Shown here in pieces: positions 55,848-64,000 of a stretch of 64,000 nucleotides of DNA. The notes beneath the pieces were generated by a model that searched no databases, was not told where the DNA came from, and saw only the letters and a list, made by a program, of their open reading frames with translations. Position 1 is the first letter of the stretch. Every line of letters starts with the position of its first letter. The translations under genes and the position numbers were made by a program. Origin of the DNA: Streptomyces sp. NBC_01276 (lineage in GTDB: Bacteria; Actinomycetota; Actinomycetes; Streptomycetales; Streptomycetaceae); assembly GCF_041435355.1 (NCBI RefSeq), contig NZ_CP108442.1, positions 5,020,501 through 5,084,500 on the forward strand, written 5' to 3'.

Positions 55848-56004
55848 CGAAACGACCCGGCTCCGGGCCCGGGGAGACGCCGCCCGGGATCCTGGATGCC
55901 GGCGGAACGGGTGGGGCGCTGGGCAGACCTCCGGTGGTTCCCCCTCCGGCCGATCGACCCAGTGCCACCCCACGTCCGCGTTGAACGCCGCCCCGGGAAC
56001 GACG

Positions 56005-56043
56005 AAGGGCCAGGTCGAGGAAATCTCCTCTGACCTGGCCCTT
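56005..56043 (-). terminator. terminator of the displaced tRNA-Gly
   Basis: AAGGGCCAGGTC (56005-56016) and GACCTGGCCCTT (56032-56043) pair perfectly, giving a hairpin with a T-rich side ten bases beyond the 3' end of the tRNA fragment. It marks the chromosomal side of the integration junction. Confidence 0.75.
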
Positions 56044-56053
56044 TGTGCTTCAG

Positions 56054-56095
56054 AGCGGGTGACGGGAATCGAACCCGCGTAGCTAGTTTGGAAGA
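56054..56095 (-). other. 3' fragment of tRNA-Gly(TCC): attachment site of an integrated element
   Basis: On the minus strand the sequence reads from the anticodon loop (CTTCCAA, anticodon TCC) through the 3' anticodon stem ACTAG, variable loop, T-arm GCGGG-TTCGATT-CCCGT and acceptor CACCCGC plus discriminator T. The 5' half is absent: the base-paired partner CTAGT and the D-arm do not follow, and similarity stops near 56095. This is the classic duplicate left when an element integrates into a tRNA 3' end. No CCA is encoded. Confidence 0.85.
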
Positions 56096-56752: not shown

Positions 56753-57508
56753 CTAGCGGCTGACAGGGATCTCGTAGACGATCTCGCAGAGCGCGGCGGG
56801 GATGACGATGTCCGCAGTCTCCACGGGCTGCCCCTGGTCGCTGTAGTACGTCCGCCGGATGTGCGTAACCAGTGCGGCCTTCTGGATCCCGAGGAGTGAT
56901 GCCTCCTCGGCGGTCGCCTGCCGCGGCTCCGGTTGCTCCACGGCATGGCTGACGCTGATCCCGATCGCGGCCATCCGGTTCACGACGCCAACCCCCGCAT
57001 GCGGCCCGCCCTCTGGCAGGACGACTAGCGTGCCCGCGGTGAGCTCGTACGGCTCCCAACTCGTCGACAACTGCACCGGCCGACCGTCAGCGAGGAACTC
57101 GTAAACGGTCCGGACGCACAGCTCGCCCTCGGCAATCCCGAGCCGCGCCGCAATCTCGCCCGGGGCCGGCACCTTCGCTTCGGTCCGGCTCTCCCAGTTG
57201 CCCTGCTTGCCCAAGGCCTGCATGTCTGCCCGGAACGGAGAACCGCCGGGCTGCTCACGCGCCGAGGACCGAACCACCCGCACACGCCGCCGAGGCTCCG
57301 CGACGTACGTACCCGAACCCGCCCGCCCCTCAAGCACACCCTGGGAGATCAGCAACTCCTGCGCCCGGCGGACCACGTTCTCGCCCACACCGCACTCCTC
57401 GGCGATCTGGGCGCGCGACGGCAGTCGATCGCCGGCCGTCCACTCGTGCTCCGCGATCCGCTGCCGCAGGACGTCGGCGATGCGGAGATAAGGCGGCTGC
57501 TCAGGCAT
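56753..57508 (-). CDS. GntR-family regulator with UTRA domain (KorSA-like)
   Basis: 251 residues from ATG 57508. The winged helix is at residues 5-75 (YLRIADVLRQRIAEHEW, then GENVVRRAQELL). A UTRA ligand domain follows (LCVRTVYEFLADGRPVQ, then ISVSHAVEQPEPRQAT). In pSAM2-type elements such proteins (KorSA) repress transfer and replication genes. Two identical-type palindromes lie directly upstream of its start and cover the divergent promoter of the small genes at 57587 onward. Confidence 0.9.
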   Translation of the reverse strand: MPEQPPYLRIADVLRQRIAEHEWTAGDRLPSRAQIAEECGVGENVVRRAQELLISQGVLEGRAGSGTYVAEPRRRVRVVRSSAREQPGGSPFRADMQALGKQGNWESRTEAKVPAPGEIAARLGIAEGELCVRTVYEFLADGRPVQLSTSWEPYELTAGTLVVLPEGGPHAGVGVVNRMAAIGISVSHAVEQPEPRQATAEEASLLGIQKAALVTHIRRTYYSDQGQPVETADIVIPAALCEIVYEIPVSR

Positions 57509-58120: not shown

Positions 58121-58341
58121 GCGGGTGGGCCCCCAACGGCTCACTCGCCGCCAGTGTCGAGATCACATCGATCAGCGTGCAGCGTGGCGACGTCATCGAG
58201 ATCGGCGGCCAGCCGTGCCGCGTCGCCGACCTCGTCCAGCTGACTGCAGGCGCCAAGCGTCTGTTCTTCGAGTCGGGCGAAGTGCTGACGATGCACCCGC
58301 AGAGCCAATTCACCGCGATCCGAATGATGAAGAAGTGGTGA
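58117..58341 (+). CDS. unknown small beta-barrel-like protein of the element
   Basis: 74 residues from GTG 58117, overlapping the preceding stop by four bases. A run of strands (VEITSISVQRGDVIEIGGQP, then RLFFESGEVLTMH) looks like a small SH3/OB-type barrel, with a basic MMKKW tail. It overlaps the following GntR gene by four bases. It could bind nucleic acid or a partner; this is only a guess from pattern. Confidence 0.65.
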   Translation: MSGWAPNGSLAASVEITSISVQRGDVIEIGGQPCRVADLVQLTAGAKRLFFESGEVLTMHPQSQFTAIRMMKKW

Positions 58342-59393
58342 TCCGGCCCGTGCCTTCCCGCCGCCAGGCCATCGCCGACGACATCCGCCACCAGATCTCG
58401 ACGAGCCACTTCAAGGCCGGCGAACGCCTCCCGTCCGAGGCCCAACTCGCCGCCCGCTACAAGGTCAGCACACCAACCCTCCGAAGCGCCCTCGCGCTCC
58501 TCGAAGGCGAAGGCCTGGTCGAGAAGATCCACGGCAGCGGCAACTTCGTCCGCCACCCACTCCGCAAGATCACGTATGTCGGTGGCGGAGTCGCAGAGGC
58601 AATCGCGCCCAGAGGGGCGACTGTCCGCCGCACGGCGCAGCTTCAAGCACACGGCCACTTGGCCGACCTTCTGAACGTCCCACCCCTCAGCCCGCTCACC
58701 GAAATCATCTACGTCACCCACGAAGGGAAGTCGCCACACAGCCTGGCTCGCATCTACATCCCCGGCGACTTGACGCCGACCGACTCACCAGTCGGCTCGT
58801 CCGTGCCCGTGACCATCGCGACCCGCTTCGTAGACCGCCGTCCTCCGCTGGCCGAAATCCAAGAGCGGCTCAGTGCCCGCCTTCCTACTCAGGAGGAGGC
58901 AGCGGCCCTTCGGATCAGCACGTCCTTGGCCGTCCTTTCCCTCACCCGCGTGGCGACCGACGTCACCGGCCGGGTGGTCGAGGCGGCCCTCCTGGTTCTT
59001 CCGGGCGACAGGGCGGATGCCCTCTTCACCACCCGCGTCATGGCCGCGGATGAGGAGCGCGAAGAAATGACGTCGGGCAACGAACTGCGTCTCCTCCCGT
59101 GGTCAGGCCCCGACAACAAGCCGTGCTTCCTGAGTACTGAGGACGCCGCCGGCTACCTGTCCCGCCTGGCGGACGACATTGAAGAGACCCAACTCGACTT
59201 GGGGTCCGCCCTCCTAGCCCACGCCCTCGAAGTCCTCGCCGAAGCGGATCCAGACCCGGAGGAACTTCACCTCCTGGCGACGGACCTGACCGGAGCCCTC
59301 CGAGACGCGGTCCGCGTAGCAACCAGCCGCGGCCACCGCCTCCCGCACCCGGCACACTCCGCACACGATGGGCCGCCGGCGGACTCCAGCTAG
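58338..59393 (+). CDS. GntR-family regulator with UTRA domain and C-terminal extension
   Basis: 351 residues from GTG 58338, overlapping the previous stop. Winged helix at residues 8-72 (RQAIADDIRHQISTSHFKAG, then RSALALLEGEGLVEKIHGSG). UTRA domain at about 90-235 (IIYVTHEGKSPHSLARIYI). The last 110 residues form an extra helical domain (GYLSRLADDIEETQLDLGSA, then HALEVLAEADPDPEELHLLA) not part of ordinary GntR-UTRA proteins. Its tight coupling to the three small genes suggests an autoregulated unit. It is followed by a terminator. Confidence 0.88.
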   Translation: MIRPVPSRRQAIADDIRHQISTSHFKAGERLPSEAQLAARYKVSTPTLRSALALLEGEGLVEKIHGSGNFVRHPLRKITYVGGGVAEAIAPRGATVRRTAQLQAHGHLADLLNVPPLSPLTEIIYVTHEGKSPHSLARIYIPGDLTPTDSPVGSSVPVTIATRFVDRRPPLAEIQERLSARLPTQEEAAALRISTSLAVLSLTRVATDVTGRVVEAALLVLPGDRADALFTTRVMAADEEREEMTSGNELRLLPWSGPDNKPCFLSTEDAAGYLSRLADDIEETQLDLGSALLAHALEVLAEADPDPEELHLLATDLTGALRDAVRVATSRGHRLPHPAHSAHDGPPADSS

Positions 59394-59647: not shown

Positions 59648-60757
59648 ATGACCGCTAGCGTTGAAGAGATCAACCCGGGCGATGTTCGCACGCGGACTCA
59701 GATCCGTGCAGTCTTCGGGGGAAGTCCGCAGGGAGGGATCTGCCCTTCAGAGGACATGCACAGCGTCAGTCTCTACTCCGACCCCGACGTGGGGGAGCGC
59801 GCCGGCTACTACGACGGCTGGCTGGCCGAGGATGACGAGCTGGGCGCCGTGTACGAGTACACCGGTGCCGGCAAGACTGGTAACCAGACCTTCGACGGCG
59901 TCGCTGGCTCCGGGAACCGGGCGATCCTGCGGCATGCTGAGCAGGGCCGGGTCCTTCGCGTCTTCACCCGCGTCGGCAAGCTGCCCGGAAGCGACACGAA
60001 GACGCATCGATATCTTGGGGAATTTACCCTGGATGGCCTGCAACCGTACGAATGGCGCAGGGTCCACGGGGAAGACGACATCGAGCGCAACGTCATCGTT
60101 TTCAGGCTTCGTCCCGAAGGTGTCATCCGGCGCGAGGAGCAGGATGTCATCCCAGCCGCCGAGGAAACATTCGCCGAGTTTGTGTCCTTCCAGCCTGTGA
60201 CGGCGGCAATGTTTCAGTCGGACCCAGCCACGAGCGGAGCCTTGCCGCTCCCGAAGCAGCGCGTCCGCACAGGAACCACCAGGGGAAAGGCCGCCCCGAA
60301 CACGGAGACAAGCGGCACCTTCGTAGTGCCCGAGGCCTTCGGTACCAAGCTGAGTATTCGTGCAGCCACCGCTGCTACGGTCGCCGTCAGGCACGAAGCT
60401 GAGCTCACGCAGGAGTACAAAGAGTTGCTGGAGTCCGCCGGCCATCAGACCGGGGCCTTCCAGATCAAGGTGAAGGGGCTCACTTCAACCCTGCGCACTG
60501 ACCTGTACGACGCGACAGATCATGTCCTGTACGAAGCTAAGGGGTCGAATTCGCGGGAAGACATCCGGATGGCCTTGGGGCAGATCCTGGATTACAGCCG
60601 CTATGTCACGGCACCAGGTCGTGAAGACGAACCCAGGCGCGCGATCCTGCTGCCAGCGGCCCCCACTCCCGACATGTACGCCCTGCTCGACCGCTACGAC
60701 GTCGCGGTGGTGTATCGCTCCGCCGACGGCAAGTTCGTAGGACCGTTGGTTCCCTAG
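59648..60757 (+). CDS. SRA/YDG-domain protein with C-terminal PD-(D/E)XK nuclease (putative modification-dependent restriction enzyme)
   Basis: 369 residues from ATG 59648. The first 160 residues match the SRA (YDG) fold that flips modified cytosines: GGSPQGGICPS, then YYDGWLAEDD, VYEYTGAGKTGNQTF and GNRAILRHAEQGRVLRV. A linker of about 80 residues leads to a nuclease-like core with DLYDATDHVLYEAKGS at about 284-299, giving the D-x(n)-E-x-K triad, and a helix EDIRMALGQILDYSRYV typical of restriction-endonuclease folds. Order SRA then nuclease is like MspJI. Expected role: cut DNA with modified bases (type IV restriction). Specificity unknown. Confidence 0.82.
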   Translation: MTASVEEINPGDVRTRTQIRAVFGGSPQGGICPSEDMHSVSLYSDPDVGERAGYYDGWLAEDDELGAVYEYTGAGKTGNQTFDGVAGSGNRAILRHAEQGRVLRVFTRVGKLPGSDTKTHRYLGEFTLDGLQPYEWRRVHGEDDIERNVIVFRLRPEGVIRREEQDVIPAAEETFAEFVSFQPVTAAMFQSDPATSGALPLPKQRVRTGTTRGKAAPNTETSGTFVVPEAFGTKLSIRAATAATVAVRHEAELTQEYKELLESAGHQTGAFQIKVKGLTSTLRTDLYDATDHVLYEAKGSNSREDIRMALGQILDYSRYVTAPGREDEPRRAILLPAAPTPDMYALLDRYDVAVVYRSADGKFVGPLVP

Positions 60758-60765
60758 CTCACCTC

Positions 60766-60806
60766 GCCGCGGGCTCGCATCTCTCCACGAGTGCGGAGCC
60801 CGCGGC
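60766..60806. terminator. 11-bp hairpin between the two cargo nuclease genes
   Basis: GCCGCGGGCTC (60766-60776) and GAGCCCGCGGC (60796-60806), 19-base loop, exactly between the two convergent stops. Confidence 0.7.
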
Positions 60807-60812
60807 AGTCGA

Positions 60813-61619
60813 CTAGACCGTCCAGGTCTTAACCAGCCGACCCAGCGGCGCGGCCCCCGCATATGGAACTAGGTCGAGCGGATTCATCCATGCATCCGAG
60901 AAATGGATGTTGAGGTGGAGCGCTAGCGCGAGAAGGATGTCCTGGTCGGGTTCGGCATCGACTTGGACGAGCGACGCCCCAGCCACCGGGGATCTGAGGA
61001 GAGAGCCCGTTCGCGGGTCGCCCCACTGCAGGTGCCCCTTTCCCGCTACCCACACACTGTCTGGCCATTCGATCGGGTTGCGAGTCCGACACCATTGCAC
61101 GAGGTGGTTTCCAATGGTCTCCAGATTGAGGCCGCCAAAGGCAACAATCATGCCCGAGGTTGGAAAGAAGTCGTGGGTCTTCCCATAAGCTTTCGTGTTT
61201 CGGGGAACGGTTCCTGGGATGGGGCGGTACGCCGTCTTGGGCATGATGCGCATCCGGCTGATTTTGGTGCAGGCGTCAACCAGCTGTACCCCGTCAAGCT
61301 TCGTCTTTACTTCGACAACGCCATATACGCATTCATTGGGGATGATCCGGAACCCCTTTAGGGTCGTGAACGGCGGTGTCCCTCGATCAATGAGGACGAT
61401 GTCCGACTGGGGTGAGACGTCGCCATTTGCCGAGATTACCTCTACGTTATGCACCGCTTCCACGTGCGCCGGCAAATATCCGGAAAGGAACTGCTGGATA
61501 AGCACTTCGCGAGACGTTCCGGCTTCGCCGTTGTGATTAAAATTCTGGGATTGCTCGAAGTCGGCACGCATTCTGCTTGCGACTGAGCGAAGGATCTTTC
61601 CGAGTTTCTCCTGTGTCAC
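60813..61619 (-). CDS. DUF6602-like protein with possible PD-(D/E)XK nuclease fold
   Basis: 268 residues from GTG 61619. The pattern resembles DUF6602 proteins: GTSREVLIQQFLSGYLPAHV near residue 35, then SDIVLIDRGTPPF (Asp at about 71) and ECVYGVVEVKTKLD (Glu and Lys at about 101-104), the D...ExK arrangement of PD-(D/E)XK nucleases. The C-terminal half is a mixed alpha/beta region. Base composition is lower in GC than the core chromosome. Related proteins occur near phage-defence genes; activity is unproved. Convergent with the SRA nuclease. Confidence 0.7.
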   Translation of the reverse strand: MTQEKLGKILRSVASRMRADFEQSQNFNHNGEAGTSREVLIQQFLSGYLPAHVEAVHNVEVISANGDVSPQSDIVLIDRGTPPFTTLKGFRIIPNECVYGVVEVKTKLDGVQLVDACTKISRMRIMPKTAYRPIPGTVPRNTKAYGKTHDFFPTSGMIVAFGGLNLETIGNHLVQWCRTRNPIEWPDSVWVAGKGHLQWGDPRTGSLLRSPVAGASLVQVDAEPDQDILLALALHLNIHFSDAWMNPLDLVPYAGAAPLGRLVKTWTV

Positions 61620-62050: not shown

Positions 62051-62728
62051 TCAGAAGAGCCGTGGCTGATCGCCAAAGGCTTGAAGCCAGTCGATCAGTT
62101 CCCTGGAGCTCCGTACGAAGGCCCGTGCTGCCCTCGTGCTGACCACTTGCTCGCCGTGCGCTGCGCGGTTGCGGTGCTGGCTCATCTCGACAATGGAAGC
62201 CCTGATGTCGTGAGGCAGCGACAAAGCCTCCACAAGGTGTCTGGTCGGCAACCGGTGAAGCTCAGCCGGCCGCTCAGCTGCCTCCAGGCGGCGCAGCTCG
62301 GCCTCCACTCCGATGAACGCCGCGACAACGGCGGCGTCGGGATGGCTCTCCGCCAGTGTCAGAAGGGCGTCATCTTCTACAGGCGCTGTCCTGTAGTGCC
62401 CGCGGACATAGTGCCCACGCACGCGACGTCGTGGGGCCTGCTCAGAAGCCGCCTCATCGGGCCCGCCCGGCAACTCGGCTGCGTCGGATCCCGGTAGCTG
62501 AGGGTCAGTCACCTCGATCGGTGGGTGGCTGAGGAGAGCCGCCTCCACCCCCTCGCTCGCTTCAAGCACGCGCTCAGAGAACTCGGCATCGATTCCCGGG
62601 CCGCTAAGCATCCTTACTCGATGTATGAGGTCCCGGAATTGCCCACGGAACCCGTACACGATGGCCAACGTGGTAGCGGGCCAGATCAGGACCTTTAGGT
62701 ACTCCAGCACCATGCGGGCAACATCCAC
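62051..62728 (-). CDS. membrane-anchored protein with HEPN-like RX4H motif
   Basis: About 225 residues if started at GTG 62728 (ATG 62713 and TTG 62752 are alternatives; no clear ribosome site). One N-terminal membrane helix (KVLIWPATTLAIVYGF) is followed by a helical segment, an acidic/Pro linker, an Arg/His patch (RRRVRGHYVRGHYR), and a helical C-terminal domain. That domain contains the RNRAAH motif near residue 190, the RX4H signature of HEPN ribonucleases and related all-helical domains. Possible abortive-infection RNase tethered to the membrane. Family not identified; motif-level evidence only. Confidence 0.7.
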   Translation of the reverse strand: MDVARMVLEYLKVLIWPATTLAIVYGFRGQFRDLIHRVRMLSGPGIDAEFSERVLEASEGVEAALLSHPPIEVTDPQLPGSDAAELPGGPDEAASEQAPRRRVRGHYVRGHYRTAPVEDDALLTLAESHPDAAVVAAFIGVEAELRRLEAAERPAELHRLPTRHLVEALSLPHDIRASIVEMSQHRNRAAHGEQVVSTRAARAFVRSSRELIDWLQAFGDQPRLF

Positions 62729-62820
62729 TTGAGCATCATGCCGGACCGACAATCTCTGCGTGGCAGTTTGAGGGCTTCCCTAGGTAGGGGAGCTGTCCTC
62801 GGGCGTGACAGGAAACTACG

Positions 62821-63126: not shown

Positions 63127-63627
63127 CTATCCCGCCTTGCAGGGGCGGGCGTCGGCGGAGCGTGCGCGGAGCGGGCCGAAGGCAGGAGCGTCGCGCGGAG
63201 CGGCGCCGGGAAGCCCGCCCGGCGGAGCGGAGCGCAGCCGGGTGCTTGATGAAGTAGGGAAAGTCTTACCGCAGCGTTCGGCGCGGAACTTGTCGAGCAG
63301 CTCGAAGAAGAGATCCATCGGCGGCACGCCTCGGTCCTTGGCTTCGAGCTCGATGGCGTAGCCCCAGATCAGGCAGCCGTATTGGCCGTTGATCTGATGA
63401 CGGAGCCACTCGTGAAAGGCTCCTTCGGCATCGAAGGCAGTCGAGCCCGCGGTGCCATGTATCTCTACAGCCACGTTGAAGCCGAGCAGGATCGATTGCA
63501 GGTGTAGGACCGAGGACTGGAAGGCGTACATGCCTGGTCGTAGGCGTATGTCTTCCAAGAAGTCGTACACGTCGCGCATCTCGTGAAACGGTCGGGGTGC
63601 GCGCCGCTTGCCCTCGGGTGCCGTCAC
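63127..63627 (-). CDS. unknown protein with IRLRPGMY motif, coupled to Nudix gene
   Basis: 166 residues from GTG 63627, overlapping the Nudix stop by four bases. The N-terminal 115 residues look like a recurrent actinomycete family with IRLRPGMYAFQSSVLHLQSI and a hydrophobic/aromatic QYGCLIWGYAIEL segment. The last 45 residues (after RCGKTF) are low-complexity Pro/Arg/Ala and may be read-through into non-coding GC-rich DNA. Similar proteins often sit beside toxins or Nudix genes; function unknown. Confidence 0.65.
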   Translation of the reverse strand: MTAPEGKRRAPRPFHEMRDVYDFLEDIRLRPGMYAFQSSVLHLQSILLGFNVAVEIHGTAGSTAFDAEGAFHEWLRHQINGQYGCLIWGYAIELEAKDRGVPPMDLFFELLDKFRAERCGKTFPTSSSTRLRSAPPGGLPGAAPRDAPAFGPLRARSADARPCKAG

Positions 63628-64000
63628 GCCGAGGCCTGGAGGAGCTGGCGGCCGTCGTGGCTGCGGACGTGGGGGCCGTCTTCGTCCAGGGCGTCCAGGA
63701 GGCGGATCGCGTAGACCTCGGACATCTGGGACGAGATCTCTTCCGGGGTGAGCCACGTGACTGCGGTCGACTCCGCTGAGGTGCGCTCGGTGCCGCCCGT
63801 CGGGGTGCAGCGGAAGACCAGGGCGACGATGCCGCGGGTGGTGTTCTTGTAGACCCCGGTGAGGTCGTTGACCTCGACCTCGATGCCCGTCTCCTCCAGG
63901 ACCTCGCGGCGAACGCCGGCCTCCGGGGGTTCGGTGAGTTCGAGGACTCCGCCCGGCAGTTCCCAAGTCCCGTTGTCCGCTCGGCGGATCGCCAGGAGTC
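63624..64000 (-). CDS. Nudix hydrolase (N-terminus beyond window)
   Basis: 125 residues are visible, ending at 63624; the start lies past the right edge. The Nudix box is complete: GGVLELTEPPEAGVRREVLE followed by ETGIEV (G-x5-E-x7-RE-x2-EE-x-G). It hydrolyses nucleoside diphosphate-linked substrates. In pSAM2-type elements a Nudix-containing protein (Pif) prevents redundant transfer, which fits the mobile-element setting, but a generic housekeeping Nudix enzyme cannot be excluded. Confidence 0.88.
   Translation of the reverse strand, partial: LLAIRRADNGTWELPGGVLELTEPPEAGVRREVLEETGIEVEVNDLTGVYKNTTRGIVALVFRCTPTGGTERTSAESTAVTWLTPEEISSQMSEVYAIRLLDALDEDGPHVRSHDGRQLLQASA

Follow-up and report, generated by a model that had tools for sequence, protein, structure and literature searches.

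A type IV-like SRA–PD-(D/E)XK protein and a convergent NucC-family nuclease form a recurrent gene pair, carried in Streptomyces sp. NBC_01276 by an integrative conjugative element

Type IV restriction enzymes cut modified DNA and spare unmodified DNA. Enzymes of the MspJI family act as tetramers, cleaving at a fixed distance from 5mC in an NTP-independent manner, and nucleases of the NucC family bind cA3 and form hexamers. In MspJI and AspBHI, an SRA domain is followed by a PD-(D/E)XK nuclease domain (PMC6212794 and PMC10101028). ScoMcrA, by comparison, is a type IV enzyme of the SBD-SRA-HNH type, and SauUSI, a PLD-helicase protein, represents a separate type. An SRA nuclease is also borne by a virus in the case of HHPV4I, an SRA-wH-HNH protein whose SRA domain is, according to PMC10101028, not responsible for its m6A-dependent activity. 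Streptomyces is known to contain several type IV enzymes with 5mC-dependent restriction, including Sco4631 and Sco2863 (PMC3874153), and NucC is described in PMC9704534 as a suicide nuclease that CBASS and type III CRISPR systems activate through cyclic nucleotides.

Here, we analysed a 64,000-nucleotide stretch of the Streptomyces sp. NBC_01276 genome (NZ_CP108442.1, positions 5,020,501 to 5,084,500; hereafter the window). It contains a gene for a 369-aa protein (59648..60757, + strand) in which, as an earlier note on this sequence had observed, an SRA domain is joined to a PD-(D/E)XK nuclease domain. A convergent gene next to it (60813..61619, - strand) encodes a 268-aa DUF6602 protein (PF20247) of the NucC family. 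We consider it possible, with a probability of roughly 0.4, that the two genes constitute a defence cargo of a conjugative element, in which both nucleases serve one response and the NucC-like protein is freed from cyclic-nucleotide control. The individual components have precedents, since the domain order and fold are known from MspJI and AspBHI, the SRA type from ScoMcrA and the partner from NucC. We encountered no SRA-NucC pair in the literature searched, which yielded no publication on DUF6602 or on NucC together with 'SRA domain'.

In the structure model of the window protein, supported by conservation, the SRA domain (aa 1-185; 59648..60202, +) and the nuclease domain (aa 242-369; 60371..60754, +) are connected by a mostly disordered linker (aa 186-241; 60203..60370, +), with pLDDT values <50 at aa 200-205 and 211-239. 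This linker comprises 55-60 aa in the DUF6602-linked branch of the family versus 17-45 aa in the remaining loci. The SRA signature consists of Y54, D56, D63, Y71-T-G-x-G75 and N90, with D56 and D63 both being candidates for the pocket carboxylate, and the nuclease motif is intact (D285/D288, E296-A-K298, Q312). Structure prediction and comparison with MspJI and ScoMcrA, part of the check proposed in the earlier note, recovered both the SRA signature and the D..ExK nuclease core. The SRA domain is homologous to the ScoMcrA-like SRA (PF26348), whereas the sulphur-binding and HNH domains of ScoMcrA are lacking; since the C-terminal domain models as PD-(D/E)XK rather than HNH, classification as an SRA-HNH enzyme of the TagI or ScoMcrA type was rejected. 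Fold, motif and conservation therefore lend good support to the proposed type IV-like protein distinct from the SRA-HNH enzymes. Its architecture, by contrast, proved not to be new. Among the folds reported by Foldseek, MspJI and AspBHI align across both domains, with the same N- to C-terminal order and a common D..ExK core. The window protein differs from them in domain placement (rmsd about 20 A), in an SRA domain that is nearer to that of ScoMcrA and in its NucC-family neighbour. At the sequence level, a single-sequence search against PDB sequences gave 0 matches, and a profile search found ScoMcrA and neither MspJI nor AspBHI. HHPV4I (PMC10101028) differs in both its nuclease and its reader arrangement. 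Judging from homology and the intact motifs, the SRA protein probably reads modified cytosine and cuts the DNA containing it, and it may plausibly hinder the entry of methylated DNA, as the note predicted.

The earlier note also regarded the gene as stand-alone, a view that is refuted by its genomic context, given the adjoining NucC-family gene and the integrative conjugative element around it. We searched 91 family loci for DUF6602 genes (78 from genomes, nine from viral contigs, three from the window genome and one from a phage; the set is partly redundant, as L028 and L089, and likewise L048 and L092, agree in the encoded protein). Such a gene was found in 18 loci, always convergent with and immediately adjoining the family gene. 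These 18 loci represent all testable members of the branch sharing >=49% identity with the window protein; at the nineteenth branch locus, L012, the contig stops 164 bp past the gene. A DUF6602 neighbour was absent from the other 72 loci, six of which (L039, L047, L051, L064, L068, L071) have <2 kb of downstream sequence, with L068 in effect providing no test because only 66 bp follow the gene. Sixteen of the 18 paired loci have 15-75 bp between the two genes; in the remaining two, the frames overlap by ~23 bp. In the window, the 55-bp gap (60758..60812) coincides with a strong hairpin on either strand (60755-60818; z -4.6 and -4.4), a candidate shared terminator. The gaps of L011 and L020, which differ in sequence, form comparably strong hairpins (z -6.4 and -5.9), and a weaker one is present in L029 (z -2.2). 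Being convergent and separated by a terminator-like hairpin, the paired genes do not form one operon.

The same association emerged from a survey of 295 Streptomyces genomes. The SRA–PD-(D/E)XK family (E<=1e-15) occurs in 50 of them and the long form found in the window (63-100% identity) in six; DUF6602 at 70-100% identity is present in exactly these six, adjacent every time, a co-occurrence with a chance of ~1e-12 if the genomes were independent, which they are not. No genome contains one of the two genes at high identity without the other. More distant DUF6602 genes (27-44%) were detected in three further genomes, with no SRA gene found beside them. A seventh genome, G285, carries remnants of both pair genes side by side, interrupted by stops (L100:4889-6076), suggesting that the pair decays together. 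Across the 18 loci, moreover, the pairwise distances of the two proteins are correlated (r 0.88; 0/2000 permutations). All Fisher and hypergeometric values given here ignore relatedness, dS is near saturation in the dN/dS analysis, and G078 is 78% complete. Further along the element, an ORF for a 233-aa protein (62054-62752, -) shows an HEPN_Swt1 match below the cut-off; a search of the other 90 loci at E<=1e-3 returned nothing for it, and it was rejected as a third conserved neighbour.

As a tentative alternative, the SRA protein may be a complete MspJI-like type IV enzyme on its own and the NucC-like gene an independent defence gene that is co-inherited in the same cassette. On a quick tree, pairing corresponds to one change, so that co-inheritance of neighbours contributes to the pattern, and the convergent order with its intervening hairpin, the intact nuclease motif of the window protein and the existence of family members without the neighbour are all in line with such independence. 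Conversely, it is at odds with the fact that none of the 18 testable branch loci lacks the neighbour and that 0/295 genomes have one of the genes alone at high identity.

The fate of the SRA-side nuclease motif bears on this question from both directions. Scoring of E296 and K298 covered 86 of the 91 loci, leaving out four that have no alignment rows and L075, which contains stops. Both residues are intact in 51/51 loci with neither a SauUSI-like nor a DUF6602 gene, as expected for a self-sufficient enzyme, with one of these lone loci, L096, retaining both residues and having D288 replaced by Ile. The motif is lost in 12 of the 17 loci with a SauUSI-like gene and no DUF6602 gene, and in one of the 18 DUF6602-branch loci. 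SauUSI-linked and lone loci differ in this respect (Fisher 8e-10, uncorrected for relatedness), and the losses amount to three changes on the tree, two of them in SauUSI-linked clades. Among the database matches listed, 100 members were assigned to the DUF6602-linked branch by identity and rank (P0001-P0099 and P0117; P0020 represents the window protein itself in shorter form). Of these, 99 have a complete SRA signature and one a partly gapped signature; the nuclease motif reads E.K in 79, E.Q in 16 and is otherwise varied in five. Thus, the SRA side has changed in part of the branch and the partner's motif has not, an asymmetry that speaks against two independently maintained enzymes. Six of the 16 E.Q members lie on a contig equal in length to that of a listed DUF6602 protein, the criterion by which the context of database proteins without loci was judged, and ten do not; a query with one of them (P0086; E<=1e-80) in 392 Streptomyces genomes returned only the six known pair genomes, with 49-53% matches, and thus no E.Q member. 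With E296/K298 retained in 79/100 members and 17/18 branch loci, the SRA protein may need no nuclease beyond its own. Elsewhere in the family, E296 or K298 is missing from 39/87 database members among the matches listed, all with the SRA signature kept, so that motif loss may also occur where there is no partner nuclease. The loci fit the notion of an SRA protein that can be reduced to reading DNA when a partner nuclease takes over catalysis; the database sequences leave room for doubt.

The SauUSI-like genes encode PLD-ResIII-DUF3427 proteins (PADLOC PDLC03659, mREase_IV; 1485 bits). They are located <=3 kb from 17/56 family loci in the 295 genomes, the most distant ones counted as near lying up to ~3 kb away (L043-L045). 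Proteins that have lost the E/K motif and kept the SRA signature are encoded close to such genes in L033, L037, L039, L040, L042-L047, L073 and L076, and they may be subunits with a reading function in a type IV helicase-nuclease. The idea that the pair always requires a SauUSI-like gene as a third component was rejected, as only 7/18 pair loci have one and the window genome yielded no match at E<=1e-80.

The partner shows the NucC fold over its entire length, with the active-site residues at the corresponding positions (D73, E103, K105). The catalytic D, E and K are found in 107/108 DUF6602 proteins, the remaining one being gapped there, and in 57/57 sequences of alignment A4. It differs from NucC in its link to an SRA reader and in the R53 column, which we take to bear on cA3 binding or hexamer formation and in which the Arg of cyclase-linked DUF6602 proteins is replaced by His. 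The possibility that it is an orphan effector, driven by a cyclic oligonucleotide from a cyclase elsewhere in the cell and only incidentally neighboured by the SRA gene, would agree with the complete NucC fold and with the position of other DUF6602 genes after cyclase, HORMA and TRIP13 genes. Similarly, two DUF6602 genes on the Streptomyces plasmids pNA13 and CFMR 7 (L107 and L108; 38-39% identical to the partner) have an annotated diguanylate cyclase or GGDEF gene a few kb away, and L107 additionally a Pycsar effector gene. We nevertheless consider this scenario improbable. In the window, no cyclase, HORMA/TRIP13 or Cas10 gene is linked to the NucC-like gene. A search with the SMODS cyclase profile (PF18144) found no CBASS-type CD-NTase gene linked to the partner, giving 0 matches in the window genome and a match in only one of the six pair genomes, on a different contig from the pair. 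Cas10 (PF22335) was detected in 0/6 pair genomes, which argues against a type III CRISPR-associated NucC. The Arg-to-His exchange and the linkage to the SRA gene point in the same direction. On an Acetobacter oryzoeni plasmid (L111:4989-6161), a DUF6602 gene directly follows an annotated type I restriction subunit R gene, possibly another cyclase-free wiring of a NucC-like nuclease. In total, DUF6602 is represented by 51 plasmid records, each with <60% identity, and none were found in phages.

A pSAM2-like AICE carries the pair as cargo. A 110-bp direct repeat (55986..56095), its left attachment-site repeat, matches the 3' end region of a tRNA-Gly gene 15 kb to the right with four mismatches, perfectly in the core (56047-56095), and joins the tRNA end to the left boundary of an element of ~15 kb. 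Inside it lie two GntR/UTRA regulator genes, one at 56753..57508 (-) and one of uncertain start upstream of the SRA gene (58335..59393, +), and a NUDIX hydrolase gene that extends beyond the window end (63624..64000, -). To the right of the window, these are followed by GntR, FtsK-type Tra (FtsK_SpoIIIE), RepSA (490 bits), a small candidate Xis-like ORF, an integrase (Phage_integrase) and the tRNA-Gly gene. Several branch members likewise adjoin AICE genes. The window genome harbours two more family copies, each again associated with mobile DNA: the first lies within a prophage, flanked by portal and minor-capsid genes (L007:7732-8751; C1:4236740), the second in an AICE-like region with candidate FtsK-type transfer, primase-polymerase-like and integrase genes (L008:7053-8060; C1:4811070). 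Location within an AICE might suggest a maintenance module, in which the SRA protein restrains a NucC-like toxin and element loss or a change in methylation kills the cell, but this is less probable still, given the convergent, non-operonic gene order, the seven of 18 loci that adjoin a SauUSI-like gene and show no AICE markers in the fetched flanks, the SRA signature and nuclease motif, which point to DNA reading, and the lack of any indication that the NucC-like protein is neutralised.

Returning to the two-gene defence cargo, we envisage that the SRA protein would flip out and read modified cytosine in incoming DNA from a phage, a plasmid or a rival element and could cut this DNA by means of its PD-(D/E)XK domain. 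The NucC-family protein encoded next to it would act as a second DNA nuclease in the same response, activated not by a cyclic-nucleotide cyclase but by the SRA protein itself or by the effect of that protein on DNA, either through direct contact or through cleavage products, two routes that are indistinguishable from the present data. We infer the cooperation of the two proteins from their linkage, their joint decay and the pattern of motif loss. It is tempting to go further and speculate that the binding or cutting of modified DNA directly activates the DNA-destroying nuclease, such that a type IV reader replaces the second messenger and mediates modified-DNA-triggered abortive infection on a conjugative element, with SRA proteins of this family able to drift from enzyme to sensor as catalysis passes to a NucC-like or SauUSI-like partner; as a whole, we regard this extended scheme as rather unlikely. 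If true, the coupling of a NucC to a reader of modified bases, with no linked cyclase, would represent a new trigger mode, tractable with two small genes, type IV restriction would be joined to abortive infection, and conjugative elements would employ modification sensing against their rivals. The system would also be relevant to the rejection of methylated DNA by some Streptomyces, a practical obstacle in strain engineering.

The wider family shows further links to mobile DNA. Its plasmid members comprise 17 records, each with <60% identity, and its phage members two records from one phage. One phage relative, gp63 of Gordonia phage Sidious, is encoded directly before two annotated methyltransferase genes (L006:4989-5885). 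In 11 prophage or viral-contig loci, including duplicates, a short-form gene lies in reverse orientation between portal and minor-capsid genes (L007, L028, L034, L048, L054, L088, L089, L091-L094); as these short forms fall into two separate clades of the tree, this slot appears as if it had been refilled. Finally, some members are fused to additional N-terminal domains. A ScoMcrA-type domain (PF26345), absent from the window protein, precedes the SRA domain in P0100, which also has an HTH, and in P0148, and an EVE domain (PF01878, as labelled in P0187; P0185 and P0186 have the same length) precedes the SRA–PD-(D/E)XK module.
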